A stretch of DNA of 64,000 bases from Mariniplasma anaerobium (lineage in GTDB: Bacteria; Bacillota_I; Bacilli_A; Acholeplasmatales; Acholeplasmataceae), in the NCBI RefSeq assembly GCF_016865445.1, contig NZ_AP024412.1:682001-746000 (forward strand). Direction: 5' to 3'. This document shows, one piece after another, positions 32,292 to 55,159 of the stretch (positions are counted from its first letter, which is position 1; the number at the start of each line of letters is the position of its first letter). The position numbers and the translations under genes were made by a program. The notes under the pieces were generated by a model. That model saw nothing but the letters and a program-made list of their open reading frames with translations. It did not search any database and had not been told where the DNA came from.

Positions 32292-35200
32292 ATGGAAAAT
32301 TATCATTTCAAACTTAATAATTATCAAAAGCAAAAACCATTTTCTAGCTTTTTAAGTGGGGTCTCTGGATTAAAAGGTATCCCTTTATGGGCTTTTTATG
32401 TCAATAGAGGTCAACTTATCTCATCTTTTGGTATTAGAAATAAAGATGGCGCAATCATGGAGTTCTTTCCAGCTAATGCAGCTTATCATTATGTATCTAG
32501 AATTGGATTTAGAACATTCATAAAGATTGATAACAAAGTTTATGAATGTTTTAAAGAGCAAGGTGAATATCAAACATTAGATGTTTATCAAGATCGAGTA
32601 TCTATAACACAAAACTTAGAAGAAGAAAAAATTTCAATAAAGATTACCTATTTCACACTTCCTAATGAAAGAATGGCAGCTTTAGTTAGAAAAGTTGAAA
32701 TCATAAATCACAGTAATGATGAAAGACAAATTGAAATTGTTGATGGATTGGCACAGATTTTACCAACAGGTGTTGATTATGGAGGATATAAAGCCATTTC
32801 AAATTTATTACAAAGTTGGATGCAAACCAAAAACAAAGAAGAGTATGTGTTTTATACTTTAAGGGGTTCAACCGGAGATGAAGCAGAAGTAAGTGAAATC
32901 AGCGAAGGTAACTTCGTGCACTCAAGATCGAGTATAAAACCCACTTACATTTACGATTATAAGGCTTTATTTTTAGAAGATACATCATTAGAAATACCAT
33001 ATGCTTTTATAAATGGTGATATTTTAGAACAAAAACAAACACACGTTAATCAAGTACCAGCAGCAATGGTGCATTACGCTTTTAAATTAAATAAAGAATT
33101 TAAATTTGTATCCATGTTTGGATATAGTGAAACAGAAGATAAATTAGATGAATTTGTTAAAAAGACTAATTTGAACTATTTTTTAAATAAAGAATCTGAA
33201 AATAAACAAATTCATGATGAAATAACGAGCACGATTAAAATGAAAACTAATTTTCCGATTTATGATGCATACTTAAAACAATGTTATCTCGATAATGTAT
33301 TACGCGGTGGTTATCCAATACAAATTGAAGCTAAAGATAAAGATGCTACGTATTATATATATTCAAGAAAACACGGTGATTTAGAGAGAGATTATAATTT
33401 CTTTAATTTAGAGCCAGCTTATTATTCTCAAGGCAATGGTAATTTCAGAGATGTACTTCAAAATAGAAGAAATGACTTAGTATTCTTTCCAAAAATCAAA
33501 GCATTTAATGTATTGATGTTTACATCTTTCATTCAAGATGATGGATATAATCCATTATCTATTGAGGGCATTGAGTTTATATATGAAGGTGATATCAATA
33601 ATCTAGACACAGAACTTATTAAATTTATACAAAATCCATTCACACCTGGAAAACTTCTTATGGTGATTGAAGATCTAAAACTAGATGAGTCATTGTTTAA
33701 AACAATACTTGCTCAAAGTAAAGTCATTTATAAAGCATCATTTGGTGAAGGGTATTGGGAAGATCACTTCACATATCTTCTAGATTTGATTGAAGGTTTT
33801 GAATCTATATATCCAGATTTTGTAGAAGATTTATTATTTAATCAAAAAGTCTCTATTTATCAATCAAATGCTTATGTTGTTCCAAGAAATCAAAAATATG
33901 TAATGACACATAAAAAAACGATTAGACAATTTGGGTCTGTAAAGCATTTAGATGAAATGGATCATTGGTTAAAAGAAAATAAAAAAATTATTGAAATTCC
34001 TGTAATATCAAAATTATTGACACTTGTTTTAAATAAATATGCACATTTAGATCCAAAGGGCATTGGACTTTCATATGAAGGGAATAAACCAGGATGGAAT
34101 GATGCGTGTAATGGTATACCAGGATTATTTGGATCAGGAGTATCTGAAACATTTGAACTTTTAAAGTTAGTTTCTTATTTAAGAAAAAACATTGAAAAAT
34201 ATGGCGATTATGAATTAGATATTTTATCTGACACAAAAGAATTTATAAATAAATTAAATCTGATCAATGAGCAAGATGATTTCAGGCATTGGGATCAAAG
34301 AATGAATGCTCTTGAAGCTTATCGAAAAAATAGACTGACTAGAAACACAAATATTTCTAAAGTGAATTCAAAAGAAATATTTGAGATTACATCTAAAATA
34401 GAAACAGTTTTAGAAAAAGCAGTACATAAAGCAAAAGCGTTAAGTGATATCATTCCAACATATTTAACATATGAAGCAACTTCATATGATGAAATTGTAG
34501 ATGATAACAATCAACAAGTTATTGGAGATTATGGCCTACCTTTAGTTAATGTTCACTCTTTTGAAATGAGAGCATTACCGAGTTTCTTAGAAGGACCTGC
34601 AAGATATCTAAAAAATTTAGCAAAACCAGAAGAAGCAAAATCTATTTATGATAACGTTAAACAATCAGGTTTATATGATAAGAAACATAAATTTTATCAA
34701 ACAAGTGTTTCCTTAGAAGAAGAATCATTTGAAATTGGTAGATTAAAAGCATTTACACCTGGATGGTTAGAGAGAGAATCGAATTTCTTACACATGACGT
34801 ATAAATATTTACTTGGATTATTAAAGTCAGGTTTATATGATACATTCTATGAAGAAATTAAAACAAATTACACATGTTTTATGGATCCTGAAGTTTATGG
34901 AAGGTCACCTATAGAAAATTCGTCATTTATTGTGACTTCTTCAAATCCTGATCCAAAAAAACATGGTCAAGGATTTGTCTCAAGATTATCTGGATCTACA
35001 GCAGAAATGTTATCAATGTTTAGTTACATGTTTTATGGTAAAAATTTATTTAAATATTTAAATGGACAATTGATCTTTGAATTAAATCCAAAATTAAATA
35101 AGGAATTTTTTATAGATCATAAGATTGAAACCACACTTTTTAAGGATATTAAGTTGACTTATCATAATGAATTATTAGTTAACACTTATGATGAAGATGC

Positions 35201-35345
35201 TTATATCGAAAAGATAGTATTAACAACAAAAGATCAAGTTATAAAATTTGATCAATCATTTATTGAAGAAAAATGGGCAAAAGATATTCGTAAGAAAAAT
35301 GTCTTAAAAATAGATGTCTATTATAATAAGGAGGAAAATAAATGA
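32292..35345 (+). CDS. Large beta-glucan phosphorylase, GH149/GH161-like (1,3-beta-oligoglucan phosphorylase)
   Basis: This 1017-residue cytoplasmic protein has the two-part GH94-clan layout. A beta-rich N-terminal region begins around GLKGIPLWAFYVNRGQLISSFGI. The long (alpha/alpha)6 barrel carries GNKPGWNDACNGIPGLFGSG, where Asp604 of WND is the expected general acid. The length and the PGWNDA-NG motif fit 1,3-beta-oligoglucan phosphorylases (GH149 or GH161), which I cannot tell apart by eye. The start is the ATG at 32292 with AAGGAG 7 nt upstream. The in-frame ATG at 32208 would translate the operator array and is rejected. Confidence 0.8.
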   Translation: MENYHFKLNNYQKQKPFSSFLSGVSGLKGIPLWAFYVNRGQLISSFGIRNKDGAIMEFFPANAAYHYVSRIGFRTFIKIDNKVYECFKEQGEYQTLDVYQDRVSITQNLEEEKISIKITYFTLPNERMAALVRKVEIINHSNDERQIEIVDGLAQILPTGVDYGGYKAISNLLQSWMQTKNKEEYVFYTLRGSTGDEAEVSEISEGNFVHSRSSIKPTYIYDYKALFLEDTSLEIPYAFINGDILEQKQTHVNQVPAAMVHYAFKLNKEFKFVSMFGYSETEDKLDEFVKKTNLNYFLNKESENKQIHDEITSTIKMKTNFPIYDAYLKQCYLDNVLRGGYPIQIEAKDKDATYYIYSRKHGDLERDYNFFNLEPAYYSQGNGNFRDVLQNRRNDLVFFPKIKAFNVLMFTSFIQDDGYNPLSIEGIEFIYEGDINNLDTELIKFIQNPFTPGKLLMVIEDLKLDESLFKTILAQSKVIYKASFGEGYWEDHFTYLLDLIEGFESIYPDFVEDLLFNQKVSIYQSNAYVVPRNQKYVMTHKKTIRQFGSVKHLDEMDHWLKENKKIIEIPVISKLLTLVLNKYAHLDPKGIGLSYEGNKPGWNDACNGIPGLFGSGVSETFELLKLVSYLRKNIEKYGDYELDILSDTKEFINKLNLINEQDDFRHWDQRMNALEAYRKNRLTRNTNISKVNSKEIFEITSKIETVLEKAVHKAKALSDIIPTYLTYEATSYDEIVDDNNQQVIGDYGLPLVNVHSFEMRALPSFLEGPARYLKNLAKPEEAKSIYDNVKQSGLYDKKHKFYQTSVSLEEESFEIGRLKAFTPGWLERESNFLHMTYKYLLGLLKSGLYDTFYEEIKTNYTCFMDPEVYGRSPIENSSFIVTSSNPDPKKHGQGFVSRLSGSTAEMLSMFSYMFYGKNLFKYLNGQLIFELNPKLNKEFFIDHKIETTLFKDIKLTYHNELLVNTYDEDAYIEKIVLTTKDQVIKFDQSFIEEKWAKDIRKKNVLKIDVYYNKEENK

Positions 35346-37858
35346 AAAAAAGATTTATATTTACCGTTTTAATGTTATTAGCTGTATTTACTTTAGTTGC
35401 ATGTGGTGAAACAGAAACACCTGAAGTGACTTTATCAGCAATTACTTTTAGCGGAGTTGACAATGTCACTCTAGACTTTGATGCAGATTTCAATGTATTA
35501 GATGGCGTAACAGCGACAGGTAATAATGATGTAGATTACTCAGATTTAATTACGTATTCTCACGTAGCTACAACAATTATTACAGATGATGTATTAGATA
35601 CAACAGTGACTGGACAACATGCGATTAAGTATGAAGTAGAAGTCGATGGCATATTAGCACAAGTATTTAGAATGGTTACGGTTAGTGAACCGGCAGCTGT
35701 TGAAGGTCAAATGCTAGTTAATGCTGATTTCTCACAAGGTACTGCAGGTTGGGATGGCAGTGCAGTTTATATTGCAGATGGTGCTGAAATGACTTTATCT
35801 ACAGAAGATTTTGATGGCAATCTTGCATTTAAAGCTGAAGTTGTTGTTGGTGCTAATGTTTGGACTCCAAGATTTGGCCAAATGAATGTACCTTTTGAAG
35901 ATGGCAAGACATATGAAATTTCATTTAAAGCTAAATCAAGCGCAGAAAAAATAATTAATTTACAAGTTGGTGAAATATTAGCTGGTGCACCTTACTGGAA
36001 TGATTTTAAACCAGGGTTAACTATTACTAAAACTATCACAACTGAATGGGCTACATATTCATATAAATTCACTATGAATCAAGATAATCAAGCTGGTGGT
36101 ATCTTATTTGAAATGGGTACTATAGGAAGTAATGCAGTTAATGCAACTTTATGGTTTGATGATATTACAATAACTGAAACAACTCCAGATCTTGATGAAA
36201 CAGCTCCAGCTTTCACTGGATTAGCTGCATCAAAATCTATTTTAGTTGGTGCTGATTTTGTTCCAATGGCAGGCGTTACTGCGTTTGACATTGTTGATGG
36301 CGATGTTACAGAAGATGTAGTTGTTGAAATTAAGGATTCAATGGATGCTGTTGTTCAATCAGTAGACACATCAGTTGAAGGAACTTATACACTTACTTAT
36401 ACTGTAAGTGATGTTGCTGGCAATGAAGCTGAATTCGTTGTTACTTTAGAAATCGTTGGAATGCAATTTAGTGATACTAATTTAATTGTAAATCCATCAT
36501 TTGAAGCTGATCTTAATGTTGAAACTCCTGAATGGGCTTTATGGCAACAAGATGGTTATTGGGCAACACCAGCTCCAGTTGTGGTTACAGAACTTGATAC
36601 AACTGCTGGAACTTATTCACTAGATATTACTGGTGGTGGAGATGCTGCATGGGCAGTTCAATTTTCTCAAGATGGAATTGAACTTGTTGAAGGTAACACA
36701 TATCGCTTAACTGTAATGGTTCAAGCAGAAGTTGCAAGAAAGATAAATGTAGCAGTAGGTTATGGTGACCCATGGGTTCAATATGCTAGATTTGATGGTC
36801 AAGATGTTGCAACTGATGAAACAACTTTAGAATTCTTATTTACAGTTTCTCAAGCAACGCATGAAGTTAAAGTAGTCTTTGAACTTGGTTCACAAGATGG
36901 CTTTGCTGATGGCTTAGTAACATTTAGTGAAGTTAAATTACAAGAAGCATTATTAGATGACATCATTATGAATGGTCAATTTAATACTGGTTGGGAACTA
37001 TGGTTCCAAGACTGGGGAGATGCTCCAACAGTTACACTAGATCGTACAAATGGTTCATTTGATCTTGCGATTGATAAAGGTGGAGATGCTTTCTGGGCTG
37101 TTCAATTTAACCAATTAGTTGATTTAGAAGCTGCTACAACATATACACTTTCATTTGATGCAAGTGCTACAGTAGCAAGAAATATTAATATTGAACTTTT
37201 AGGCACATCTCTTGAAGGTGATTCAAAAGGGTCATTCGATTTAACAACAGGTGTACAAACATTTACAGTTGATATTACAACTACTGATGCACTTACAGCT
37301 GCTAAATTAAGTTTCGAAATGGGCGCAACTGGATCATTTGCTGCAGGTACTGTTTCTCTTGACAATATTTCATTAAAAGTTAAAGATGATGCAGAAGCAG
37401 AAGAACTAATTATCAATGGTGATGCAACATCAGTTCCATACTTTATGTATGATAATGCTGGTGAAGGTGCAGGCACAATGGTTTTAGGCGAAAATAGTGC
37501 AGTTATTGATGTAACTACATTAGGTTCACAACCTTATACTCCTCATTTCTATCAAATGATTGAAGGACTTACTCCTGGCGATTATGTATTAAAAATTGTC
37601 TTAGACTCAACAGTTGATAGAGACTTAAGAGTTAACATGGTATTACCAGATTCTGGATATGCAAGTATCTTAGCTGACGGTTCTGTTGACTTTGGTGTTG
37701 TTTCAACTGAAACTAACGTTGTTTATGTAACATTTACAGTGACAAATGAAGTTACTAATGTTAAATTAGAATTAGACTTTGGTACATTAACTGATTTAAC
37801 ATCTGCTGTTGGTGTATTTACAATTTATGAAGTGTTAGTATATCAAGATTTAAATTAA
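35342..37858 (+). CDS. Surface lipoprotein with several carbohydrate-binding-type modules
   Basis: The lipoprotein signal ends in FTLVACGE (Cys about residue 21). A short Ig-like domain follows. Then come CBM4/9-like jelly-roll modules that begin LVNADFSQGTAGWDG (about 125-280), LIVNPSFEADLNV (about 380-535), IIMNGQFNTGWELW (about 540-680) and LIINGDATSVPYF (about 690-838), with a DUF5011-like domain in between (AGVTAFDIVDGDVTED). No catalytic motif is visible. It probably holds beta-glucan at the cell surface. The gene overlaps the phosphorylase stop (ATGA) and precedes the sugar-binding protein by 17 nt. Confidence 0.82.
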   Translation: MKKRFIFTVLMLLAVFTLVACGETETPEVTLSAITFSGVDNVTLDFDADFNVLDGVTATGNNDVDYSDLITYSHVATTIITDDVLDTTVTGQHAIKYEVEVDGILAQVFRMVTVSEPAAVEGQMLVNADFSQGTAGWDGSAVYIADGAEMTLSTEDFDGNLAFKAEVVVGANVWTPRFGQMNVPFEDGKTYEISFKAKSSAEKIINLQVGEILAGAPYWNDFKPGLTITKTITTEWATYSYKFTMNQDNQAGGILFEMGTIGSNAVNATLWFDDITITETTPDLDETAPAFTGLAASKSILVGADFVPMAGVTAFDIVDGDVTEDVVVEIKDSMDAVVQSVDTSVEGTYTLTYTVSDVAGNEAEFVVTLEIVGMQFSDTNLIVNPSFEADLNVETPEWALWQQDGYWATPAPVVVTELDTTAGTYSLDITGGGDAAWAVQFSQDGIELVEGNTYRLTVMVQAEVARKINVAVGYGDPWVQYARFDGQDVATDETTLEFLFTVSQATHEVKVVFELGSQDGFADGLVTFSEVKLQEALLDDIIMNGQFNTGWELWFQDWGDAPTVTLDRTNGSFDLAIDKGGDAFWAVQFNQLVDLEAATTYTLSFDASATVARNINIELLGTSLEGDSKGSFDLTTGVQTFTVDITTTDALTAAKLSFEMGATGSFAAGTVSLDNISLKVKDDAEAEELIINGDATSVPYFMYDNAGEGAGTMVLGENSAVIDVTTLGSQPYTPHFYQMIEGLTPGDYVLKIVLDSTVDRDLRVNMVLPDSGYASILADGSVDFGVVSTETNVVYVTFTVTNEVTNVKLELDFGTLTDLTSAVGVFTIYEVLVYQDLN

Positions 37859-37875: not shown

Positions 37876-39348
37876 ATGAAAAAAATAGTTTCTCTATTAA
37901 TGGTATTAATCTTAGGATTTGTCTTAGTTGCTTGTGGTGGCGATGATCCACTAGATCCAACTGGTCCAGTTCAAACAATTCAGTTATCATATGCTGACTG
38001 GGGAGACCCAGAATTCAATCAAAAAATGATTGATGCCTTCGAAGTAAAATATCCTAATATTAAAGTTACTTTAAGAACAGATATTGAAGGTAGTGGTGAA
38101 GCATTTACTGGTAATTTAATTACTGCTGCTCAAGCAGGATTGTTACCTGATGTATTTGCGACAGATAATGTACCTACAATTATTAATGCAGGTTTAACGC
38201 TTGATGTTGCACAATATTGGGATGCTGATGTAGATACTGATTCAGTTTATGATAATATAGCTTTAACAGGTGTTTATAATGGTAAACGTTTTGCAGTTCC
38301 ATCATTCCAATTTTTAAAAGGTATAATGATTAACTTAGATATCTTTGAAGAAGCGAATTTAACAACTGTTGATGGCAAATATCGTATCGACAATGATGGC
38401 TATCCAGTAAAAGATTGGACATTCGAAGAATTTATTGAAGTTGCAAAAGCAATCAAAAACTTTGAAATTAATCCTGCTGATGATACTTTAGTAGATCCAG
38501 CTAACACTGTTGTTGGTTTAGATACATGGTATGGAAGTCCAGATTTCCAACAAGTATGGCCAATGATGGAAGACGAAAATGTTCAATATGACACATGGGA
38601 TGGAACACAATTTAATTACACATCTGATGATTGGGTTTATGCCATGGAACAAAAAGTTGAAATGCACCAATTAACTAATGGTACAACAACAAGATTCACT
38701 ACAGAAGTATATGATGCAAACACAATCTTACAACAATACTTAATTCAATTTGGTGTTGGTGCTATGGATATCGAAGGATCTTGGCAATTTTGGGTTCTTA
38801 ATGAAGCTAAAGAAACAAGTGATATAAACTTAGGTTTTTGGCCTTATCCAAGTGGAGATGCAGGTTTATTTCCGCCAACAATTCTAGATTATCAAGCAGT
38901 ATCTAGTCAAACTGATCATCCTGAAGAAGCATATTTGCTTGCAAAATGGATGACATTTGGTGAAGAAGGTTGGGAAGCTAGATTAGATTTACTAGAAGCT
39001 GACTTTGATGAAGCTGAAGCTGCTGGTATAACACCAATGTATTTAGATAGATTCCCAGTTGCTAATTATCCAGGAGTTTGGGATAGAGTTTATGATTTAG
39101 TTGATGGTATTGAAGGTATTGATTACACATTTAATCGTATCGAATATGCTAAACCAGATTTAGACAAATGGTTACCAGGATATAAAGATTTCTGGGCATG
39201 GGTTAATGATCCAGAAAATCCATATAATTGGGAAAACCTTGTTCAAGCTGGCCCACAAGCAGTTGAAACATATGCTGTTCAATGGGAAAATAAAGCAAAT
39301 GAAATTGTTCAAGGACAACTAGAAACATTAGGTTCAGATACAGAATAA
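37876..39348 (+). CDS. ABC transporter sugar-binding lipoprotein (family 1)
   Basis: This 490-residue lipoprotein (GFVLVACGGD; Cys about residue 20) has the family 1 solute-binding fold: DPEFNQKMIDAFEVKYPNIKVT, NLITAAQAGLLPDVFATDN, FQQVWPMMEDENVQYD, and many Trp residues in the C-terminal half suited to stacking on glucose rings. It should bind beta-1,3-gluco-oligosaccharides for the permeases downstream. AGGGAGG lies before the ATG. A hairpin follows the gene. Confidence 0.92.
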   Translation: MKKIVSLLMVLILGFVLVACGGDDPLDPTGPVQTIQLSYADWGDPEFNQKMIDAFEVKYPNIKVTLRTDIEGSGEAFTGNLITAAQAGLLPDVFATDNVPTIINAGLTLDVAQYWDADVDTDSVYDNIALTGVYNGKRFAVPSFQFLKGIMINLDIFEEANLTTVDGKYRIDNDGYPVKDWTFEEFIEVAKAIKNFEINPADDTLVDPANTVVGLDTWYGSPDFQQVWPMMEDENVQYDTWDGTQFNYTSDDWVYAMEQKVEMHQLTNGTTTRFTTEVYDANTILQQYLIQFGVGAMDIEGSWQFWVLNEAKETSDINLGFWPYPSGDAGLFPPTILDYQAVSSQTDHPEEAYLLAKWMTFGEEGWEARLDLLEADFDEAEAAGITPMYLDRFPVANYPGVWDRVYDLVDGIEGIDYTFNRIEYAKPDLDKWLPGYKDFWAWVNDPENPYNWENLVQAGPQAVETYAVQWENKANEIVQGQLETLGSDTE

Positions 39349-39368
39349 AGATAAATAAAAGAGTAGAT

Positions 39369-39391
39369 AGAGGAGATGGAAATCTCCTCTT
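39369..39391 (+). other. Intergenic mRNA hairpin after the sugar-binding protein gene
   Basis: AGAGGAGAT pairs with ATCTCCTCT around a short loop. No T run follows, so it is probably a 3'-end stabiliser or partial attenuator that lets the binding protein be made in excess over the permeases (inference). Confidence 0.65.
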
Positions 39392-39415
39392 GACACTATA
39401 TTTTTGGAGGGTAAT

Positions 39416-42400
39416 ATGAAAAAAACAAAAGATATTTTAAAAAAAGGAATGGCACATATAGAGGCGTTTTTTAAGTTGCTTACCATTAAGAAATGGCTGA
39501 TATTAACCTTTTCTGTATTACTAGTGACGATTATTACAGTTTCTTTTTTTAAAGTATCTTCAAATCATGATTTTTATGCTACACAAGAATTATCTTATGA
39601 TTATAGTAATCAAAGTCTTTCGCAAGCATATAATCAAACGCTATATAGTGAGCTAAAACAAAATTATATAGAAAATAACATTCAAGATACTCAAGTAGAA
39701 GAAACAGTAACTACTTTAGAGATGGTCGGTGATTTTGTTGATGTAAATGATGTTAACTATGGTGAAATAGTGCAAGATTACCAATCACAAAAATCTAATA
39801 GTAATGATATTTTATTATTAAAAGAAAATAATGATATTACGTGGACTCATAATGAAAGTGAATCTGGGTTGTATTATTTAGCAATTGACTTTTATGAAAT
39901 TCAAGATAACATTAATCAAGCACAAATCGAAATATCAATTAATGGTGAACCACAATTTTATGAGGCTCAAACTATTGTATTAAAATCAAAATGGGTTTAT
40001 GACACATATGACTTCATGCTTGATCGTTATGAAAATGAAATTATGCCAAGTTCTCATAAAGTAAAAGAATGGACATATCAAAATATATATGACTACCGTG
40101 GTATGCATCCAGGTTATTTTGCATTTTATTTAGAACAAGGTGATGAACTTTCTATTTCTTATGTTAATCAAGAAGTTTTAATTGGTCAAATATATTATGT
40201 ACAAAACGAATCATTTATGACTTATGATAATTATTTAAATATGTATCCGACTGCTAACGTTGTTGAAGATGAAATAACAGTATCAGCAAGAAATATCTTA
40301 TATCGTAACAATCCATCGATTAGACTTAGAACAGAACAAGATCCATCAAACTTATATTATGACACACAATTTTTAAGATTAAATACAATCTTTGGTGATT
40401 CTTGGCAAAATTCTGGTGATGAAATTGCGTATGAAATAGATGTTGAAGAAGCAGGATTTTATCATTTATCATTTAAATATAGACAATACATGATTAAAGA
40501 TATGACTGTATTTAGAAAGATTAGAATTAATGGTGAAGTTCCTTTTGATTTATTTGAAAGTTACGCATTTCCATATACGACTAATTTCATTAATCGTACA
40601 TTATCAGATTCAGATGGTGAGTCCATTAAAGTTTATTTAGAAGCTGGTACAAATGAAATTGTATTAGAATCAGTCAATTATCCTTATCGTGACACAATTG
40701 AAACTATTCAATATGTCATGAGTAATATTCAAGCATTAGCTCTAGACGTTAAACGTTACACCAGTGGCGGAACTGATAAATATAGAGACTGGGATATCGA
40801 AGCATATTTTCCAGAAGCAAGTGATAATATCACAAGTTGGGCAAGACTATTAGAAGAAACTTATGATGTTTTATTACCATTATCTGATATAGAACAACCT
40901 TCTGAGATTGCAAACTTGATGGTTGCGGCTAAGAGATTAGATAATATTGCATCTGACATTAATAAACTACCTTCTATGATGGTTCAATTTTCTGATGGAG
41001 ATTCATCAATTAATCAAATATTAGGCGATTTAATGCAAAGATTACTAAGAACAAATCTAGAAATGGAACGTATGATTGTTCATGGAGATGTAAAAATTGA
41101 AAAACCATATGCTAATATATTTGTTCGCTTTTTTGAAGGAACAAAACGATTAGTTTTATCATTTGTTAATAACCCATATTCTGCATCTGATAGAAACGAT
41201 GAAGATATAACGGTTTGGGTTAACCATCCAAGACAATACATTGAAGTCATGCAAGCTTTAATTGATCAATATTATCAAGGAAATAGAAAAGTTACATTAT
41301 CACAAATGCCAGATCAAAATAAATTGATTTTAGCGAATGCATCAAATCAAGCACCAGATTTAGCCATTGGTGTTGATCACTGGATTCCATATGAATTTGC
41401 GATAAGAGATGCAGCATTAGATTTAAGACAATTTTCAGGGTATGAAGATACAGTTAACAATTTTACTAAAGGAGCTATGATTCCTTATGTCTTTCAAGAT
41501 GGGGTTTACGGTTTACCGGAAACACAAGATTTCTGGGTAACTTATTATAGAAAAGATATATTAAACAGTATTGGGATAACTGAAATACCTCAGACATGGG
41601 AAGAAATCATTGAGATCCTGCCTTTGTTACAAAGTTATGGCATGAATTATTTTGTACCATTAGCACAGTATAGTGGACTTAAACCATATGTTGCAACACT
41701 ACCATTTATTTATCAATTTGGTGGTGATTTATATGCATCTGATGGTATGTCTACAGCAATTAACTCAGAAGAAACATTAGAAGGTATAACTTTAATGAGT
41801 GATTTATTTACTTTATATAACCTTCCTAAGTATGTTCCTAACTTTTATAATCATTTTAGATATGGTCTGCTACCTATTGGTATATCAAATCTATCAACTT
41901 ATATTTTATTAGAAACAGCAGCAGTTGAACTTGATGGTCTATGGGAAATGGATTTACATCCTGGCGTATATAATGAAGAACTTGATGAAATCGTGAGATA
42001 TTCATCTGTAGGCGGTCAATCATCAATGATTATGAGTTCTACTGAATATCCAGAAGAATCATGGGATTTCTTAAATTGGTGGATGTCAACATCCGTTCAA
42101 AGTGAATTTGCATTTTTATTACAATCTACATATGGGCAAGCATATTTTTGGAATACAGCTAATATAGAAGCATTCAAAAATATTTCAATGCCAGATGAAT
42201 ATAAACAAATCATATTAGAACAATGGGAATATGGAGTTGAAGCTTCAAGAATTCCTGGGGCATATATGGTTGAACGATCTATTAGTAATGCATGGACATC
42301 TATAGTATTTGATGGTACAAATCCAAGACAAGCTCTAGATGAAGCGGTAAGAGTATCTAATAGAGAAATTATTTATAAAATGGCTGAATTTGGATATACA

Positions 42401-42484
42401 GAAAATGGAGAAATTATTAAAGAATATATTGTTCCGAGTATTTATAATATAGACCAATGGCTGACGGAGGTAGATCATGACTAA
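39416..42484 (+). CDS. Large membrane-anchored protein: binding-module N-half plus family 1 solute-binding domain
   Basis: This 1022-residue protein has one N-terminal membrane helix (about residues 25-45). A region of about 400 residues follows with CBM-like beta-sandwiches ([20 protein letters not shown] and [17 protein letters not shown], each with a repeated INGE-type strand), then a helical linker (about 450-585). A complete solute-binding domain ends it (about 600-1022; [53 protein letters not shown]). It thus presents a second binding protein tethered to the membrane. The ATG at 39416 has GGAGG 5 nt upstream. Confidence 0.8.
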
Positions 42485-43361
42485 AAGAATGAATCATCCA
42501 GCATGGTTTCTATTACCTTACTGGACACTATTTTTCGTATTTATTATTGTACCTGTTATTGCGGCAATCTTCTTATCATTTACTTATTTTAATGCAATTC
42601 AAGCTCCAACTTTTATTGGAATTACTAATTATATCGAATTGATTACGATGGATACAGTATTTATGCAATACGTTTTATCAAATACTTTAAAATTTGCATT
42701 AATAGTTGGACCTGTAGGATATTTGCTATCATTTATTCTTGCATGGGTTCTTGCACAAATACCACAAAAATATCGTACAGTTTTTGCAATCATTTTATAT
42801 TCACCATCCTTAACCATGGGTGTTGCAATGGCTTCTATGTGGCGTATCATTTTCTCTGGTGACTCACAAGGGTATTTAAATAGTTTACTTCTAAATTGGG
42901 GAGTTATATTAGAGCCTATTCAATTTTTACAATCACCTGATTACTTAATGACAATTATGATTGTAGTAAGTTTATGGAGCTCTATGGGTGTCGGCTTTTT
43001 AGCAATGCTTGCAGGTGTATTAAACATTGATCAAACATTGTATGAAGCTGCTTATGTAGATGGTATTAGAAATCGTGCACAAGAAATATTTTATATTACG
43101 ATTCCATCTATGAAACCACAAATGTTATTCGGTGCTGTTATGGCAGTTGTTACAACATTTCAAGCAGGAGGTATTGGGGTTCAATTATCTGGATCAAATC
43201 CGACACCACAATATGCTGGCCAACTCATTGTTAATCACATTGAGGACTTTGGCTTTATCAGGTATATGATGGGTTATGCAGCTACAGTTAGTGTTGTATT
43301 ACTCTTAATTGTATATTTTATTTCAAAAATAACATTTCGTATATTAGGTGAAAAGGAGTGA
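42477..43361 (+). CDS. ABC sugar permease, MalF type (pair 1)
   Basis: This 294-residue protein has six membrane helices and the EAA loop [20 protein letters not shown], which contacts the ATPase. It overlaps the preceding binding-protein gene by 8 nt and has GGAGG before the ATG. It forms a heterodimer with the next gene product for CUT1-type uptake of oligosaccharides. Confidence 0.92.
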
Positions 43362-43365
43362 TTAT

Positions 43366-44247
43366 ATGGCATCAGCTAGTTTCCAAGGGACAAAAATAAA
43401 TCCTACTAGGCTTCATAGAAGTCAACTACCTTTCTTTATGTTTTTAATTCCTTTTGCGACATTAATGATTTTACCGATCTTATTTATCTTTAATCATGCA
43501 TTTAAGCCTAGAAGTGAATTATTCGCATATCCACCTAGATTTTTTGTAAGAAATCCTACCTTTGATAACTTTAATGAATTATCAAGACTAGTTTCCGCAT
43601 CAGGAGTTCCTTTCTCTAGATATCTTGTTAATAGTTTGTTAGTTACAATCATTGGTGTAACACTTGCAATATTTATAACAGCATTTTCTGCTTATGCTTT
43701 ATCAAAATTAAAGTTTAGAGGCAAAAAATTATTGTTTGAAATTAATACATTAGCCTTAATGTTTGTACCTATCGCGGTTCAAATACCTAGATATTTAATT
43801 ATTGCAAGATCAGGATTAATTGATACATATGCAGCTCATATATTACCGATGATTGTCATGCCAGTTGCAATGTTTTTAATCAAGCAGTTTATTGATCAAA
43901 CACCAAATGAAATTATTGAATCTGCTAAAATTGATGGTGCATCTGAGATGCAAATCTTCTTCAAAATAGTGCTTCCAGTTATTGCACCTGCAATCGCAAC
44001 CGTAGGTATTTTAGCATTTCAAATTATATGGAATGATGTTTCAACATCTGTCTTATATATTAATGATGAATCGAAAAGAACATTAGCATTTTATATGCAA
44101 AGTTTAACATCCATTCAAGGGAATAACGTTGCTGGACAAGGGATGGCCGCAGCAGCTTCTTTGATTATGTTTGTTCCAAACTTAGTACTATTTGTATTCT
44201 TACAAGGTAAGGTCATGAATACGATGGCCCATTCAGGTATCAAATAA
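43366..44247 (+). CDS. ABC sugar permease, MalG type (pair 1)
   Basis: This 293-residue protein has six membrane helices and the EAA loop ESAKIDGASEMQIFFKIVLP. I chose the ATG at 43366, with AAGGAG 9 nt upstream, over an upstream GTG inside the previous gene. It is co-translated with its partner and with the Yip1-type gene that follows. Confidence 0.92.
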   Translation: MASASFQGTKINPTRLHRSQLPFFMFLIPFATLMILPILFIFNHAFKPRSELFAYPPRFFVRNPTFDNFNELSRLVSASGVPFSRYLVNSLLVTIIGVTLAIFITAFSAYALSKLKFRGKKLLFEINTLALMFVPIAVQIPRYLIIARSGLIDTYAAHILPMIVMPVAMFLIKQFIDQTPNEIIESAKIDGASEMQIFFKIVLPVIAPAIATVGILAFQIIWNDVSTSVLYINDESKRTLAFYMQSLTSIQGNNVAGQGMAAAASLIMFVPNLVLFVFLQGKVMNTMAHSGIK

Positions 44248-46280
44248 TGAAAAAATTATTTATAGTATTCTTTATATTTACATTATTATTCATCCCATCG
44301 TTTAAAGTTGAAGCAAATGGTCTACCATATAGCACGTATACTTATAGTAGTGCATTAAATCGTATGGTATGGACTCAAGATGCATATATCCCACTTTCTA
44401 TACAAGAAGAACTTGCTGGATATGAATTAAATGAACCAAAAGATTTAACAATTGATGATAATGATAATATTTATATTGCTGATTATGGTAATCATCGTAT
44501 TATTAAATATAGTCTGCAAGATGATATTGTTACAGTTATTGGTGAAGATATATTAGATGAACCAATGGGTGTACATGTTGGAAAAGATGGAAGTTTGTAT
44601 GTTGCAGATTTTGGATTAAAAATGGGTTTAAAATTTGTATATGATGAGATTTTATTATCATATGTATTAGAAAATACTTATGAAAAACCTACAAATACTC
44701 CATATTTTACAGATCAAGATGCATTTGACCCTACAAAGATTATTACAGATAAAGGTGATAATGTTTATATGTTATTAGCTGGGAATATCAATGGACTTGC
44801 AGAATATGAAAATTCTGGTATGTTCTTTGGTTTCTTTGGAGGTAATACGATTCCAAACACATGGGATAATATTTTGAAATACATGTTGTTTGATGAAGAT
44901 CAAAGAAGACAATGGTTCCAAATGATTCCAGATCCTGTTTATAATATAGCAGTTGATCGTGATGGATTAATCTTAACAACAACAAAAGGATCAGATGGAT
45001 ATCTAAAATTAAATATTGCTAATTTTGTTTATAATCAATCAGTTTGGGGCTTTGATTCAACAGAAGATGTATTTGTTGGACCTTATGATACAATCTTTAC
45101 GATTACATCAGAAGGCTATATCACAGAATATGCGCCTGATGGCTCTGTATTATTCGTTTTTAGTGGTCAAGATGTAAGTAATCAAAAAGGATTGTTTAAA
45201 TCGCCTACAAGTATTGCTATTGATTCTAAAAATAACATTTACGCACTGGATCAAGAGACATCTGCTTTGCAAGTGTTTATTCCAACTGAGTTTGCAAATT
45301 TAGTACATTTTGCAATCAGTCTTTACCAAGATGGTAAATATAGTGAATCATTAGAACCATGGCAAGAAGTATTAAAAATGAACAGTCTATTCGACCTTGC
45401 TAATAAAGGTATCGGTAATGCATACTTCTCAAATGAGGACTATGATCAAGCGATGGAATATTATGAAGTTGCAAGAGATCAAGATGGTTTTTCTAATGCT
45501 TTCTGGGAAGTTCGAAATGAGATGCTTTTAGATAGTGGCGAAATTATTATTTCATTTATTTTAATTGCAATTGTATTATATTTCGTGAATTACTTCACGC
45601 ATTTTATGAGATTTTTAACAGATCCAATTAAAAAATTAAAAATATATTTACAAAAATATAAGTTCTATCAAGAAATGGTGTTCCCATTTTATATATTTAA
45701 AAATCCAGCAGATGGATATTATGGTATAAAACGTGAGAAAAAAGGCTCTAATTTTACAGCAACAATTTATCTGTTACTATTCTTTTTAGCCTATATCTTA
45801 TCGATTTACAGAACAAGTTTCTTGTTTAATAATCAAATACCATCAGAGATAAATCTATTTGAACAAATGGTTACAATCTTTGTTCCATTTATATTATGGG
45901 TAGTAGCAAACTACTTAGTATGTAGTATTCGAGATGGCGAAGGTAAATTAAGTGATGTTTATCAAGCATCTGCATATACATTATTACCAATGATTATCGC
46001 TTTACCAATTATTACTATAGTATCTAATGGATTGACTTATAACGAAGCTTTCATATATGACGCACTAATGATTATTGCTTTATCAATTACAGTTATATAT
46101 TTCATCATTATGGTTAAAGAAATTCATTTCTATGATATGAGACCAACCATTGGGAATATTTTAATTTCGATATTTACAGCATTAATGATTGTCGCAGTAT
46201 TGTTCATTGTTTATTTACTATTAAATGAAGTTTATGGACTGTTTGCAGACATTGTAAGGGAGTTGATTAACCGTGGTTAA
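44247..46280 (+). CDS. NHL-repeat / TPR / Yip1-domain membrane protein
   Basis: A signal peptide (about residues 1-23) is followed by an NHL-type beta-propeller (about 45-340; NEPKDLTIDDNDNIYIADYGNHRIIKYS, GLFKSPTSIAIDSKNNIYALD). Next are a short TPR stretch (about 350-415; GNAYFSNEDYDQAMEYYEVA), one membrane helix (about 428-448) and a Yip1-type domain (about 475-677) with about five membrane helices. The propeller probably faces outside, where it could bind glucan or organise the transport proteins. The gene is embedded between permease pairs. The function is unknown and the placement suggests a transport accessory. Confidence 0.78.
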   Translation: MKKLFIVFFIFTLLFIPSFKVEANGLPYSTYTYSSALNRMVWTQDAYIPLSIQEELAGYELNEPKDLTIDDNDNIYIADYGNHRIIKYSLQDDIVTVIGEDILDEPMGVHVGKDGSLYVADFGLKMGLKFVYDEILLSYVLENTYEKPTNTPYFTDQDAFDPTKIITDKGDNVYMLLAGNINGLAEYENSGMFFGFFGGNTIPNTWDNILKYMLFDEDQRRQWFQMIPDPVYNIAVDRDGLILTTTKGSDGYLKLNIANFVYNQSVWGFDSTEDVFVGPYDTIFTITSEGYITEYAPDGSVLFVFSGQDVSNQKGLFKSPTSIAIDSKNNIYALDQETSALQVFIPTEFANLVHFAISLYQDGKYSESLEPWQEVLKMNSLFDLANKGIGNAYFSNEDYDQAMEYYEVARDQDGFSNAFWEVRNEMLLDSGEIIISFILIAIVLYFVNYFTHFMRFLTDPIKKLKIYLQKYKFYQEMVFPFYIFKNPADGYYGIKREKKGSNFTATIYLLLFFLAYILSIYRTSFLFNNQIPSEINLFEQMVTIFVPFILWVVANYLVCSIRDGEGKLSDVYQASAYTLLPMIIALPIITIVSNGLTYNEAFIYDALMIIALSITVIYFIIMVKEIHFYDMRPTIGNILISIFTALMIVAVLFIVYLLLNEVYGLFADIVRELINRG

Positions 46281-48663
46281 ATATGCTAAATATATACTTA
46301 TTATGTTTTTATTTGTCATGAGTGTTGTAGTTATTACATATGGATACAACCAGCCTGTTGTGGGAGATCAACAAGAAGTAGAAACAAATTTTAATTACAT
46401 TAATCAAATATTTTTAGAGTCTTCAAGATATACGCAAAAAGACCAAGTGGATCAAGCTGTACTTGACGCTTATCATGACGATTTTATACTTGGTTTTAGT
46501 AGTCAAGACTTACTTGATTTAGGATTTGAAGAAATGTTTGACACAGCAGAATTAACTGTGTATTTTGAAAAAGATTCATTTTCAATGATTGTTTATAATA
46601 AAATAACGAACTATTTATGGTCTTCACGTCCAGAATTTCAAGGACTAAGCGGTGTTAGAGAAGATAATACTGCTACAAGAAACTTAATGAATTCAGGTTT
46701 ATGGGTAGACTATGTAAGAAGTCAAAATGTTTCATCATCAACAATATCAACAGCTTCTTTATATACATTAGCTGAAGCTAAGTATTTGACAGATGGATCG
46801 ATGACAGATACGCAAACAGATCCATTAAGTCCTTATCAATTAGAAGCTGGAAGTTATTCTAATCGAAGAGTTGCAACATCAGTAGAGAAAAACAGTAACA
46901 CTTTGTTTACAGTTTTAATTGATTTAAAAGAAATTGATGTTAAATTTGAAGTGCAAATTTCTTTAATTAATGGAACACTTAGTGTTTATATTCCTGTTCA
47001 AACTATTGAAGAATATGGAGATATTTATAAATTATTATCCATTTCAATATTCCCATATTTAGGTGCTGCTAGAGAAGATAATATACCAGGTTACATGATG
47101 ATTCCAGATGGTATTGGAGCACTTGTTAGAATGAATAAAGCACATAATACGACATTCCAAGCACAATTTTATGGTGCAGATTTCGGTTATGGCTCTAGTT
47201 CAATCGCGCAATTATCAGTTCCTATTTTTGGTATGGTTCATGCTCAAGAAGAAAATGGATATTTAGCTGAAATTGAAGAAGGCGCAGAAGTAACAAGCTT
47301 ACAAGCCCAATATTGGGGTAACAATTCAAGATATCATCGCATCGGATCTAAATACAATGTTAGAAGAGTATTCAGATACATTATTAACAAGGCTGGCGAT
47401 GGTAACGATACAATTGATGAAGCCTTAACAGAAAGTAATTTTAAAATTAATTATAATTTCTTATCTAATCAAAACGCAAGTTATGTTGGTATGGCGAAAG
47501 TTTATCGTGCTCGACTTATTGAAAGAGGCGTTTTAACAGATAATGAAAAGACACTAGATAATCAAATTCCAATTCATTTAAGTTACATCATGAGTGATAC
47601 AGAAAAATCATTTATTGGATCTACAAGTGTTGTTATGACTACTGTTGATGATGTTTATAATAGTTATCAATCATTTAAAGCATCAGGTATAACTAATCAA
47701 CAAATTCAACTAAATGGATGGAGTAGAGATGGTTTTGTTTTCCAGGCACCATATCGCTCTAAAATCGCTAATAAGAGCGATTATCAAGACTTATTCGAAA
47801 CTATAAAAGCTGAAGGAAACACCGTTTATCTTGATAATGATTATGTCCAAGGATCAGAGTTGACCAATAGAATTTCTTACACACAAGATGTTGCGAAAAC
47901 ATTATCTAGACTTAAGATGGAGAGAAACTATCGTAGTCTTAATGCTCAAGTAACTGAAGTTTATTATATTTATCCTGAAGAAAGTTATAAATTTGCACAA
48001 GATGATTTAGACTTTTATCAAGACTTAGGAGTCTCAGGTTTATATTTAAGTACTATAGGGTCAACATTATTTAGTTATTATGATCAACAAAACTATGAAC
48101 GTCAAGAATCTATGTCTTATTATCAAGATATAGTTTCAATGTATGATCAAATTTTATTAAGTAGACCTAATCAGTATTTTTATGAAAATTTAAGTGGTTA
48201 TCTTGATATGCCTATTACAAATGCACAATATGATTATTATTCAGATTTAATTCCATTGATTCCACTTATTTTAAAAGGTAGCATATCTTATTACATTCCT
48301 TATTTAAACTTTAATGCCATGGGTGAAGATAGATTACTTACAATGGTTGATTTTGGAATGAATCCAAGTTATTTGTTAACCGAAGAAGATACATATAAAA
48401 TGAGATATACTAATGCTTCGTTATATTACACGACAACAAGAAGTGATTATGAAGAAGAAATCATAGAAACTTATGAATATGTAAATGGAGCTTTATCATC
48501 TGTTATTGGAGCATCGATTTCAAATCGTGAAGTATTAGATACTGGATTTGTCAAAGTGACTTACTCAAATGGGGTTATGATCTATGTCAATTATAATTAT
48601 GAACAAAAGACATTAGATGGACAAACAGTAGAGATGCGAGATTATAAGGTGGTGCTAGGATGA
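46273..48663 (+). CDS. DUF5696-like membrane-anchored extracellular protein
   Basis: This 796-residue protein has one N-terminal membrane helix (about residues 5-25) and a long external region. The first half is beta-rich (LTVYFEKDSFSMIVYNKITNYLW). The second half, from about residue 400, looks like an alpha/beta barrel (IQLNGWSRDGFVFQAP, GNTVYLDNDYVQGSE, GVSGLYLSTIGSTLFS), similar in style to some retaining glycosidases. I match it to DUF5696 from memory of such proteins beside sugar ABC genes. The GTG start lies 10 nt after AAGGGAG. It may be a glucan-processing enzyme, but this is unproven. Confidence 0.65.
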   Translation: MVKYAKYILIMFLFVMSVVVITYGYNQPVVGDQQEVETNFNYINQIFLESSRYTQKDQVDQAVLDAYHDDFILGFSSQDLLDLGFEEMFDTAELTVYFEKDSFSMIVYNKITNYLWSSRPEFQGLSGVREDNTATRNLMNSGLWVDYVRSQNVSSSTISTASLYTLAEAKYLTDGSMTDTQTDPLSPYQLEAGSYSNRRVATSVEKNSNTLFTVLIDLKEIDVKFEVQISLINGTLSVYIPVQTIEEYGDIYKLLSISIFPYLGAAREDNIPGYMMIPDGIGALVRMNKAHNTTFQAQFYGADFGYGSSSIAQLSVPIFGMVHAQEENGYLAEIEEGAEVTSLQAQYWGNNSRYHRIGSKYNVRRVFRYIINKAGDGNDTIDEALTESNFKINYNFLSNQNASYVGMAKVYRARLIERGVLTDNEKTLDNQIPIHLSYIMSDTEKSFIGSTSVVMTTVDDVYNSYQSFKASGITNQQIQLNGWSRDGFVFQAPYRSKIANKSDYQDLFETIKAEGNTVYLDNDYVQGSELTNRISYTQDVAKTLSRLKMERNYRSLNAQVTEVYYIYPEESYKFAQDDLDFYQDLGVSGLYLSTIGSTLFSYYDQQNYERQESMSYYQDIVSMYDQILLSRPNQYFYENLSGYLDMPITNAQYDYYSDLIPLIPLILKGSISYYIPYLNFNAMGEDRLLTMVDFGMNPSYLLTEEDTYKMRYTNASLYYTTTRSDYEEEIIETYEYVNGALSSVIGASISNREVLDTGFVKVTYSNGVMIYVNYNYEQKTLDGQTVEMRDYKVVLG

Positions 48664-49715
48664 AAAATATATTAAAGAGCATAGCACAGTTTTTAAATAA
48701 GTTTTTTGAGAAGATAGGAAATTTTTATACACATAAAGTATCAAAAGGTATCGATAAGGCAAAATTTATTTTAGAGCATAATTTTTTAATTAGAAGAGAA
48801 GGATTAACGCTGACATTATTTAGTTTTCTTAAAATTAATGTTACGAGAAAAAGAAGAGAAGCTTTTTATGGCATTATGTTTATTATGTTATGGATTATCG
48901 GTTTTTTAATCTTTACTTTATATCCTATGTTTTACTCTCTTTATTTAAGCTTTAATGAAGCTTACTACAGTTTAGAAACTGGTGTAGAAACTACATTTAT
49001 TGGATTCACCAATTATTTAAATGTATTTAGAAGTCAATCATTGCTTCCATTATTTGGAACATATATAGGTAAAATGATTATTGCAGTTCCATTAATTGTT
49101 GTATTTTCAATCTTAATTGCTGTTTTAATTAATAACCCTATTAAACTTAAAGGTATTTGGAGAACTATATTTTTCTTACCAGTTATTATTTCTACAGGTC
49201 CAGTTATTAATGAATTAAACAATCAAAATGCAACCTCGATTCCAGCTTTAGAAGATAGTTCAGTTATTGTTTATATTTCAGAAAATTTAGGACCATGGTT
49301 AGCTAATCCGATAGAAGCAATTTTAACTTCTATGCTACTTATTTTATGGTATGCAGGTATTCCAATATTAATCTTTTTAGCTGGTCTTCAAAAAATTGAT
49401 GGATCAATTTATGAAGCTGCATCAATTGATGGTGCTTCACCTTGGGATCGTTTTTGGAAGATTACACTTCCCTCAATTAAGCCACTGATCAGTGTAAGTG
49501 TGATTTATATTGTTGTTTCAATGAGTTTATTTGTTGAACCAGAAGGTATATTAGATTTAGCAAGATTACATATGTTAATTGGAGCTCCAGATTCAAACTT
49601 CTGGTTTGGATATGGTTATGCAGCTGCGATAGCGTGGGTATATTTCTTACTTATGGTCATTATTATGGGTGTATTCATTTTAATCCTTTCAGCAAGAAGA
49701 AAGGAGAATAGATGA
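48660..49715 (+). CDS. ABC sugar permease, MalF/LplB type (pair 2)
   Basis: This 351-residue protein has a cytoplasmic N-terminal extension of about 65 residues, six membrane helices and the EAA loop YEAASIDGASPWDRFWKITLP. It overlaps the DUF5696-like gene (ATGA) and the next permease gene. The long N-terminus is absent in pair 1. Confidence 0.92.
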   Translation: MKNILKSIAQFLNKFFEKIGNFYTHKVSKGIDKAKFILEHNFLIRREGLTLTLFSFLKINVTRKRREAFYGIMFIMLWIIGFLIFTLYPMFYSLYLSFNEAYYSLETGVETTFIGFTNYLNVFRSQSLLPLFGTYIGKMIIAVPLIVVFSILIAVLINNPIKLKGIWRTIFFLPVIISTGPVINELNNQNATSIPALEDSSVIVYISENLGPWLANPIEAILTSMLLILWYAGIPILIFLAGLQKIDGSIYEAASIDGASPWDRFWKITLPSIKPLISVSVIYIVVSMSLFVEPEGILDLARLHMLIGAPDSNFWFGYGYAAAIAWVYFLLMVIIMGVFILILSARRKENR

Positions 49716-50647
49716 TGAAAAAATTAGATTATAGACGTCTAAAATCAAGATCTAGACATTTTCTCTTTGGCATGAATTTCACAGATGGAATTGTTTATAA
49801 ATTTGTAATTTATACACTATTGATTAGTTTCAGTTACATATATTTGTATCCTGTACTTTTCATGACAGTTAATAGCTTTATGAGTGTTGATGACTTAATT
49901 AATCCAGGTGTTAAATGGATACCATCTAGTCTTCAGTTTGTAAACTATGGTCGAGCATTACAAGTATTAGAGTTACCTGGATCAATTGTAGGAACAACTT
50001 CATACGTCTTGAAAGTTTCAATTTCTGTAACAATATCATCAGCGATCATTGGATATGGATTTGCGAAATTTAGATTTCCACTTAAAAATCTATTATTTGT
50101 TTTAATGTTAGCAACATTCATCCTACCTTCACAAGTAACGATGGTTGCAAATATGCTTATTTTCAGAAATTTAGGACTTATGAGTACACAAAAATCAATG
50201 ATTTATCCTGCGATTTTCGGACAAGGTGTTAATGCAGCAATTTATATATTGATTTTCTATCAATTCTTTAAAACGATTCCTGGAGTATTAATGGAATCGG
50301 CAGAAGTAGACGGAGCATCGCAAATAAAAATTTTTACAAGAATTGCAATTCCACTAGCAATACCATCATTTTTGATTGTTTTCTTATTCAGCTTTGTATG
50401 GTACTGGAATGAAACATTCATCACTTCACTTTATGTTGGTGGTAGAATCACCTTACCGCTTAAATTACAAGCATTTAGAGCGAGTTATGAGACATTGTTC
50501 CCTCCAGGAACTGCTGGTGCAGAATTAAATGAGGCAATTATGCTAGCAGGCAACATGTTAACTATATTACCACTTCTTGTGTTATACTTTATAGCACAAA
50601 GATTCTTTGTAGAAAGCATTGACAGAACTGGTATCACAGGAGAGTAA
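49712..50647 (+). CDS. ABC sugar permease, MalG type (pair 2)
   Basis: This 311-residue protein has six membrane helices and the EAA loop MESAEVDGASQIKIFTRIAIP. It overlaps the previous stop codon, with AAGGAG upstream. With the 48660 product it makes a second permease heterodimer. Which binding protein serves which pair cannot be read from the order alone. Confidence 0.92.
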   Translation: MMKKLDYRRLKSRSRHFLFGMNFTDGIVYKFVIYTLLISFSYIYLYPVLFMTVNSFMSVDDLINPGVKWIPSSLQFVNYGRALQVLELPGSIVGTTSYVLKVSISVTISSAIIGYGFAKFRFPLKNLLFVLMLATFILPSQVTMVANMLIFRNLGLMSTQKSMIYPAIFGQGVNAAIYILIFYQFFKTIPGVLMESAEVDGASQIKIFTRIAIPLAIPSFLIVFLFSFVWYWNETFITSLYVGGRITLPLKLQAFRASYETLFPPGTAGAELNEAIMLAGNMLTILPLLVLYFIAQRFFVESIDRTGITGE

Positions 50648-50649: not shown

Positions 50650-51774
50650 ATGAAAAAAGTATTAAGTTTAGTTTTATTATTATTTATATTAGTCGGATGT
50701 AATCCATCAGAAGGTCCTATATCTACAGTTGATCCTTTAGTACCAGCAGAAGGATGTAGTCAACCAACTCTTGAAGGTGGCTGGGTATGCACTTGGGCAG
50801 ATGAATTTGAGGGAGATGAAGTTGATTTAGATAAATGGAATTTTGAAGTTAATGATTATGGTGGAGGTAATAATGAGCTCCAATATTACACTGAAAAAAA
50901 CGCTCAAATCGTTGATGGAAAACTCGTTATAACAGCGATTAAAGAAGATTATTTAACTAGAGATTATACATCTAGTAGATTAACTACTAAATATAAAGGT
51001 GATTTTCGCTATGGTAGAATTGTTGTTTCAGCTAAATTGCCAACTGGTGCAGGAACTTGGCCAGCAATTTGGATGATGCCAACATTAAATGCATATGGAA
51101 GTTGGCCAAATAGTGGTGAAATAGATATTATGGAATATGTGGGAAGAGATCCACAAAATGTATTTTCAACCATTCATACTGAAAAGTTTAATCATCAAGA
51201 TGGCACTCAAATAGGATATGATATAACTGTTCCAACTGCTGAAACAGAATTTCACACGTATGAAATTATATGGAATCCTGGAGAAATTATTACGTATGTA
51301 GATGGCGTATCATTTGCAACATTTAGATATACTGCACAATTTAATCAAGATGTAGCGTATTATGAAGCATTTCCTTTTGACCAAGATTTTTTCTTAATTT
51401 TAAATTTAGCTTTAGGTGGAGGATTTGGTGGAACAGTTGATGATTCAATATTTCCAACTGCTTTTGAAATTGATTACGTAAGAGTTTATAAATATGATTA
51501 TGGAACCATAGATAAAGAAGTACCATCAAATATTGAAGATTTACAAATATCCCAATTAAAAAACACTATTTATTGGGATGCATCGAGTGATGATTATGGT
51601 GTAGAAAAATATGCAATTTATGTTGATGATGAATTATATGATTTTGCAAATTTAAACCAATATACTTTTGATCGCTTAGTAAAAGGACAATCATATCAGA
51701 TTAAAGTTCAAGCAATTGATTTTGTTGGTAATGCTTCAGAGATAAGTCAAATACTTTCTTTCACATATTTGTAA
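50650..51774 (+). CDS. Secreted GH16 beta-1,3-glucanase lipoprotein with C-terminal FN3-like domain
   Basis: The lipoprotein signal ends LFILVGCNPS (Cys about residue 17). The GH16 domain (about 45-285) has TWPAIWMMPT and GEIDIMEYVG (Glu157, Asp159, Glu162), a laminarinase-type catalytic site. A single FN3-like domain closes the protein (about 295-374; GVEKYAIYVDDELYD). It should cut laminarin-like glucan at the cell surface to supply the transporter. It is the last gene of the operon that starts at 32170. Confidence 0.92.
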   Translation: MKKVLSLVLLLFILVGCNPSEGPISTVDPLVPAEGCSQPTLEGGWVCTWADEFEGDEVDLDKWNFEVNDYGGGNNELQYYTEKNAQIVDGKLVITAIKEDYLTRDYTSSRLTTKYKGDFRYGRIVVSAKLPTGAGTWPAIWMMPTLNAYGSWPNSGEIDIMEYVGRDPQNVFSTIHTEKFNHQDGTQIGYDITVPTAETEFHTYEIIWNPGEIITYVDGVSFATFRYTAQFNQDVAYYEAFPFDQDFFLILNLALGGGFGGTVDDSIFPTAFEIDYVRVYKYDYGTIDKEVPSNIEDLQISQLKNTIYWDASSDDYGVEKYAIYVDDELYDFANLNQYTFDRLVKGQSYQIKVQAIDFVGNASEISQILSFTYL

Positions 51775-51833: not shown

Positions 51834-51957
51834 TGTATTAATAGTTGCATGATGATAAAAGTGGTTTTTACCTTTTATGTAAAGATTACTTATCATGTTA
51901 ATTATTAGTAACGCCCTAGTGATAACTCCCCCCCAATCACTAGGGCTCATTTTTTTT
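51834..51957 (+). ncRNA. Candidate small regulatory RNA with C-rich terminator loop
   Basis: A TATAAT box is followed by about 125 nt without a coding frame. A first stem is closed by ATGATAA (51852-51858) and TTATCAT (51890-51896), with an inner ATAAAA/TTTTAT plus GGT/ACC. It ends in a strong 11-bp hairpin, GCCCTAGTGAT / ATCACTAGGGC (51913-51946), followed by eight T. The terminator loop contains CTCCCCCCC, which can pair with G-rich Shine-Dalgarno sites. The hairpin may also terminate the long operon upstream, so the separate RNA is a prediction. Confidence 0.5.
51913..51957 (+). terminator. Strong Rho-independent terminator of the glucan operon / small RNA
   Basis: An 11-bp perfect stem with a 12-nt loop and a T8 tail. 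Confidence 0.92.
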
Positions 51958-55113: not shown

Positions 55114-55117
55114 TGTG

Positions 55118-55131: not shown

Positions 55132-55159
55132 CAAATATATACGAAAGTTAGAGAAACAA

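Follow-up and report, generated by a model that had tools for sequence, protein, structure and literature searches.

In Bacteroidota, Sus-type loci combine a surface enzyme, surface glycan-binding proteins and a transporter, with one chassis per glycan. The beta-1,2-glucooligosaccharide system of Listeria innocua is an ordinary importer with a single substrate-binding protein (SBP) and no extra proteins. For CUT1 sugar importers, shared ATPases of the MsmX type have been established in Bacillus subtilis (PMC7658222). In Acholeplasma laidlawii PG-8A, a cluster with a glycoside hydrolase family 94 (GH94) gene, an SBP and ATP-binding cassette (ABC) parts adjoins a GH161 cluster whose permease pair lacks an SBP, and a shared SBP was proposed (PMC6484121). 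Here we describe an eight-gene module at positions 37876-50647 of a 64,000-nucleotide stretch (the window) of the Mariniplasma anaerobium genome (~1.9 Mb; contig NZ_AP024412.1, positions 682,001 to 746,000, forward strand), which an earlier sequence-only reading had described as a compound beta-glucan uptake machine.

The module resembles the B. subtilis importers in having SBPs, permeases with EAA loops and an ATPase that would be encoded elsewhere. A CUT1 importer comprises one SBP and one permease pair, whereas the module has a second SBP, a second pair and, in addition, three further proteins or domains. That it exceeds a normal CUT1 operon was recognised by the sequence-only reading; the comparison of genomes shows that this composition is conserved. 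It further differs in its membrane-anchored fusion of carbohydrate-binding module (CBM) and SBP domains and in its fixed gene order. To the Sus-type loci it is a functional analogue, though it has neither an outer membrane nor a TonB receptor and its proteins are unrelated. We consider it probable (roughly 0.6) that the eight genes encode a single, conserved import module of the ABC type for oligosaccharides, which in this copy takes up beta-1,3-glucan oligosaccharides derived from laminarin. The observed basis is gene order, conservation, co-divergence, predicted folds, EAA loops and enzyme neighbours. The module bears on the capture and uptake of long glycans in bacteria that lack an outer membrane.

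Gene order and its conservation

The eight genes are all on the + strand, in the order SBP, SBP*, P1, P2, NHL-TPR-Yip1, DUF5696, P3 and P4 (part names used throughout):

37876-39348, +: free substrate-binding lipoprotein (SBP), 490 amino acids (aa), lipobox LVACG
39369-39390, +: hairpin between SBP and SBP*, from folding and coordinates
39416-42484, +: SBP*, 1022 aa, with N-terminal membrane anchor, CBM35/Golvesin-like beta domains, helical linker and C-terminal CUT1-type SBP
42477-43361, +: permease P1, EAA loop present
43348-44247, +: permease P2, EAA loop present
44247-46280, +: NHL beta-propeller, TPR (predicted outside) and Yip1 membrane domain, 677 aa
46273-48663, +: DUF5696 protein, 796 aa, with N-terminal anchor and GH129/GH101-type fold without conserved catalytic acids
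48660-49715, +: permease P3, EAA loop present
49712-50647, +: permease P4, EAA loop present
51913-51957, +: intrinsic terminator closing the operon, 11-bp stem, -18 kcal/mol, T-run

All parts named by the sequence-only reading lay in their place and order, and its 1022-residue, membrane-anchored binding protein was borne out with ATG 39416 as the start (the alternative TTG 39404 sits at the ribosome-binding site). To arrive at its ten genes one must also count the CBM lipoprotein (35342-37858) and the GH16 lipoprotein (50650-51774), the latter starting 2 bases past P4 and followed by the strong terminator. It had also described overlaps throughout; these hold from SBP* to P4, where each junction overlaps by 1-14 bases, but not between SBP and SBP*, which are separated by 55 bases (67 to the likely ATG) containing the strong hairpin.

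Conservation was profiled in two samples. The first was chosen by DUF5696 and comprised 40 neighbourhoods from a phylum-wide search plus the two copies in the window's genome. The order SBP*-P1-P2-NHL(-)Yip1-DUF5696-P3-P4 was found in all 42 loci, with P3 and P4 fused in two. In these two (L066 and L067) they form one open reading frame (ORF) of ~616 aa, at about 10.8-12.7 kb. For the second sample, named genomes were searched with P1 alone, the most conserved part, so that the circularity of DUF5696-chosen loci was avoided; the broad DUF5696 alignment diverged too much to serve in such a scan. At least 585 P1 matches were confirmed, and the gene set, present in hundreds of loci, looks like a widespread import machine. 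Among the best 80 of these matches, 74 loci had enough sequence: SBP* was present in 74/74, and P1, NHL, Yip1, DUF5696, P3 and P4 were all present in 73, the single exception (L134) lacking only a called Yip1 gene. P2 was outside that test; three of these 73 loci had no separate ORF called for it. Because the sample consists of the best P1 matches, looser relatives may behave differently. One of the 73, L126 of Paenibacillus sp. D2_2, has its DUF5696 ORF in three pieces and SBP* in two, and is either a decaying copy or affected by sequencing errors.

The conserved grouping is not chance, and it is more strongly conserved than the sequence-only reading could know. That reading had placed the NHL/Yip1 and DUF5696 genes with the permeases; a lack of conservation beside permeases, which would have spoken against this, did not occur in either sample (42/42 and 73/74). 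The hosts belong to two phyla and include Acholeplasmataceae, Paenibacillaceae, other Bacillales and Clostridia, among them Paenibacillus, Cohnella, Lederbergia, Gracilibacillus and Thermobacillus, and the same order is found in annotated records of Paenibacillus cellulosilyticus and Butyrivibrio fibrisolvens. The module is often present in several copies per genome. Copy counts for the window's own genome come from searches, and sub-threshold DUF5696 matches (profile positions ~299-366, ORFs of ~560 aa) were not taken as family members. In 33/122 loci NHL and Yip1 are fused; in the remainder they are separate genes.

The distance matrices of the eight parts correlate with r of 0.81-0.96 (109 loci). 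In all same-genome module pairs listed, the counterpart of each part in another genome was nearer to it than the home paralogue. Parts are thus not exchanged between the modules of a genome; they move together.

Hairpins of unlike sequence occupy the SBP/SBP* gap in L043, L057, L060, L061, L063 and L064, as in the window (39349-39415); among the relatives inspected for it, L053, L054 and L055 had none in this gap. The hairpin likely keeps SBP mRNA in excess. A promoter and terminator scan performed no better than on shuffled sequences. P3 carries an N-terminal extension of ~65 residues ahead of its first transmembrane (TM) segment (48660-48860) that is absent in many relatives; the P3 of L003, the second copy in this genome, has 313 aa.

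Importer parts and how they may work together

Both SBP* and the free SBP are extracytoplasmic sugar SBPs of the kind found in CUT1 importers. SBP* matches SBP_bac_1 (E 1.2e-15). Its C-terminal domain resembles maltose-binding protein, with binding proteins for cycloisomaltooligosaccharide and beta-1,2-glucooligosaccharide (the latter 5ysb, from L. innocua) as nearest folds, and a helical linker separates it from the CBM35/Golvesin-like N-terminal regions. The free SBP had no Pfam match; its match to an extracellular SBP of family 1 (22hh) scored 72 bits, and relatives in its slot match SBP_bac_1/8. In all four permeases the E and G columns of the EAA loop are invariant or nearly so (116-124 loci), which predicts ATPase coupling for both pairs. 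The NHL-TPR part is predicted outside because it follows a signal-like segment at the N-terminus and precedes the next TM helix, with Yip1 in the membrane. An ORF elsewhere in the genome is 56% identical to a Paenibacillus UgpC-type ATPase, and this UgpC/MsmX-like protein would be the best candidate ATPase for the module.

The protein previously called DUF5696-like is a full match to PF18952 (456.5 bits against a curated cut-off of 25.6; profile positions 6-612 of 612). Structure prediction for this product of the gene at 46273, proposed in the sequence-only reading, was run on the monomer and gave a GH129/GH101 fold. The AlphaFold2 model (predicted local distance difference test 78, predicted template modelling score 0.82) comprises an anchored beta domain, a TIM barrel and a C-terminal beta domain. 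Foldseek placed GH129 first (ZgGH129, 5opq, E 7e-31, TM-score 0.67 by target; NagBb, 5wzn) and GH101 (EngBF) next, and profile searches gave the same remote links (E 1e-7 to 1e-4). A search for the GH129 family (PF11308) in the class gave no match anywhere, controls included. DUF5696 thus shares the whole fold of these glycosidases, but is membrane-anchored and lies beside permeases, and in the remote alignment their catalytic nucleophile Asp and acid/base Glu are not conserved.

The EngBF segment IYLDVWGN, which we take to contain the GH101 nucleophile, aligned remotely to GLYLSTIG in the window, which puts S593 at the nucleophile place; in the model S593 directly follows the strand 589-592. 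PDB titles name D764N and E796Q mutants of the Streptococcus pneumoniae GH101 enzyme. Over 118 sequences the nucleophile column holds Arg in 50, Asp in 10, Asn in 9, Ser in 9, Gly in 8 and other residues in the rest; at 631-633, where the next strand ends, 8%, 0% and 1% of the residues are acidic. Position 693 is D or E in every sequence and lies in a helix of the model; D279 and D303 are conserved acidic positions as well. A glycosidase fold without the catalytic acids suggests that DUF5696 probably binds or orients glycan and does not cut it. The simplest reading is a former glycosidase retained for binding, probably a non-enzymatic glycan-docking protein, and the chain processing once considered for the extra proteins is unlikely for DUF5696. 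DUF5696 was not found in the literature searched (subscription journals lay outside the coverage), and a search on NHL, YIP1, SBP and Paenibacillus found nothing. Seen as one module, the genes give DUF5696 and the bacterial NHL-Yip1 proteins a testable function.

In the working we propose, the surface GH16 lipoprotein would cut laminarin, and the CBM lipoprotein and free SBP would catch the fragments. The tethered SBP* would pass chains to the pore, where the P1/P2 and P3/P4 heterodimers, each with ATPase-coupling loops, would act jointly with an extracellular scaffold of the NHL/TPR/Yip1 protein and DUF5696, the latter binding or orienting glycan. A shared MsmX-like ATPase encoded elsewhere would power import, and cytosolic GH161 and GH94 enzymes would phosphorolyse the imported oligosaccharides. 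It is plausible that the parts form one physical complex. The pairing of SBPs with permease pairs and the sharing of the ATPase are inferred.

Several points weigh against this working. Co-transcription and co-inheritance would be compatible with two separate importers under one promoter too, and the operon has no ATPase gene. The mapping of the catalytic residues relies on a remote profile alignment and a model, and 10/118 DUF5696 sequences do have Asp at the nucleophile column.

A more far-reaching version is possible but tentative. The module may be an unrecognised ABC importer architecture, a double-pore complex of P1/P2 and P3/P4 that is clamped together on the outer face of the membrane by two components, a scaffold of beta-propeller and Yip1 and a glycosidase without catalytic activity, the latter docking or threading long chains. 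Such a machine would serve many polysaccharides in wall-less and Gram-positive bacteria and take up longer oligosaccharides than a normal CUT1 importer.

We regard it as unlikely, though less so than the alternatives below, that the locus encodes a pair of ordinary CUT1 importers that share a transcript but no physical contact, one of SBP* and P1/P2 and the other of the free SBP and P3/P4, with NHL-Yip1 and DUF5696 as independent surface proteins. The two might, for instance, take up long and short oligosaccharides. Both EAA loops are present in each pair, most loci have two SBP genes, and the P3/P4 fusions in two loci indicate that P3 and P4 pair together. However, separate importers should part company in some genomes, whereas across two phyla practically all loci have the NHL, Yip1 and DUF5696 genes placed between the pairs, and in some copies, such as L003, no second SBP was seen in the stretch read.

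That DUF5696 is an active membrane-anchored glycosidase, trimming oligosaccharides at the pore with an active site unlike that of GH129/GH101, is improbable. Its fold and the conserved acids D279, D303 and D/E at 693 would allow it, but the nucleophile column is variable and the next strand end poor in acids, and the occurrence of one family beside enzymes of unlike specificity fits general docking better than cutting. Least credible is a glycan sensor of NHL-Yip1, SBP* and DUF5696 that controls the operon from outside the transport path: the anchored binding protein has a long helical linker and there is a response-regulator gene (52031) 3' of the operon, but no cytoplasmic signalling domain was found in the three proteins, and the locus already has a LacI regulator together with a candidate operator.

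Substrate of the window copy and of other copies

The single-module reading assigns this copy to laminarin from its neighbours:

24820-26148, +: GH30, nearest to endo-1,6-beta-glucanase, 288 bits, below the curated cut-off
27515-30022, +: GH94 laminaribiose phosphorylase, 605 bits to 6ggy
30413-31141, +: GH16 without predicted signal or TM segment
31138-32160, +: LacI-family regulator
32171-32184, +: candidate LacI-type operator TGAAAACGGTTTCT before GH161, seen in the sequence; statistically weak
32208-35345, +: GH161 beta-1,3-oligoglucan phosphorylase, 657 bits to 9qqk
35342-37858, +: CBM4_9 lipoprotein with three CBM stretches
50650-51774, +: GH16 laminarinase-type lipoprotein, GEIDIMEY motif intact

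A laminarinase-type GH16 enzyme and beta-1,3-glucan phosphorylases, the genes expected of a laminarin locus, adjoin the module, and the neighbours together make up a predicted beta-1,3/1,6-glucan pathway. Because the GH94 laminaribiose phosphorylase, GH161, the GH16 lipoprotein and GH30 adjoin it, the window copy most likely serves laminarin. The operator search was weak, with 2 matches against 0.59 expected.

A run of 14 genes is syntenic in G045, a genome from another genus of the same family, which repeats the order laminaribiose phosphorylase, GH16, LacI, GH161, CBM lipoprotein, eight-gene module and GH16 lipoprotein. The laminarin locus was not found in A. laidlawii strain QMP CG1-1743 (G089; same family), which has one full DUF5696 copy only and no laminaribiose phosphorylase; its congener G045 was used for synteny in its stead. 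The PG-8A clusters resemble the window in having GH94, GH161, GH16 and ABC parts side by side and one pair without its own SBP. Compared by description only, PG-8A has two clusters, whereas in the window and G045 both pairs lie in one module joined by NHL-Yip1 and DUF5696; by analogy with the window layout, the SBP-less pair of PG-8A would be P3/P4 of one module.

Other copies adjoin other enzymes. The second copy in the window's genome (L003, G000:C1:1803500-1822500) is followed by DUF624, NamZ exo-N-acetylmuramidase, GH3, BadF-type, SIS-domain (GKRP-like) and glucosamine-6-phosphate isomerase-type genes, which may form a peptidoglycan-fragment pathway and suggest that Acholeplasma-type bacteria scavenge such fragments. 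The same neighbour set recurs in the family members L038-L041. Where NHL and Yip1 are split, the downstream genes include NamZ, GH26, GH10 and GHL10; where they are fused, these include PF10091 and GH16. Because the neighbours thus differ between copies, with enzymes for peptidoglycan-, mannan- and xylan-type glycans as well as laminarin, the module is a general chassis whose enzymes change. The beta-glucan uptake of the sequence-only reading therefore very probably applies to the window copy, which laminarin enzymes adjoin, but not to the module as such.

An IS3-family transposase ORF (26624-27367) lies between the GH30 and laminaribiose phosphorylase genes. Two more CBM4_9-matching proteins (55115-56293 and 56302-58002), downstream of a second LacI regulator (54029), perhaps belong to the same regulon. 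On a plasmid of P. cellulosilyticus (L073), the module is accompanied by a UgpC ATPase and several LLM flavin-dependent oxidoreductases, not glycosidases, hinting at an unusual substrate.

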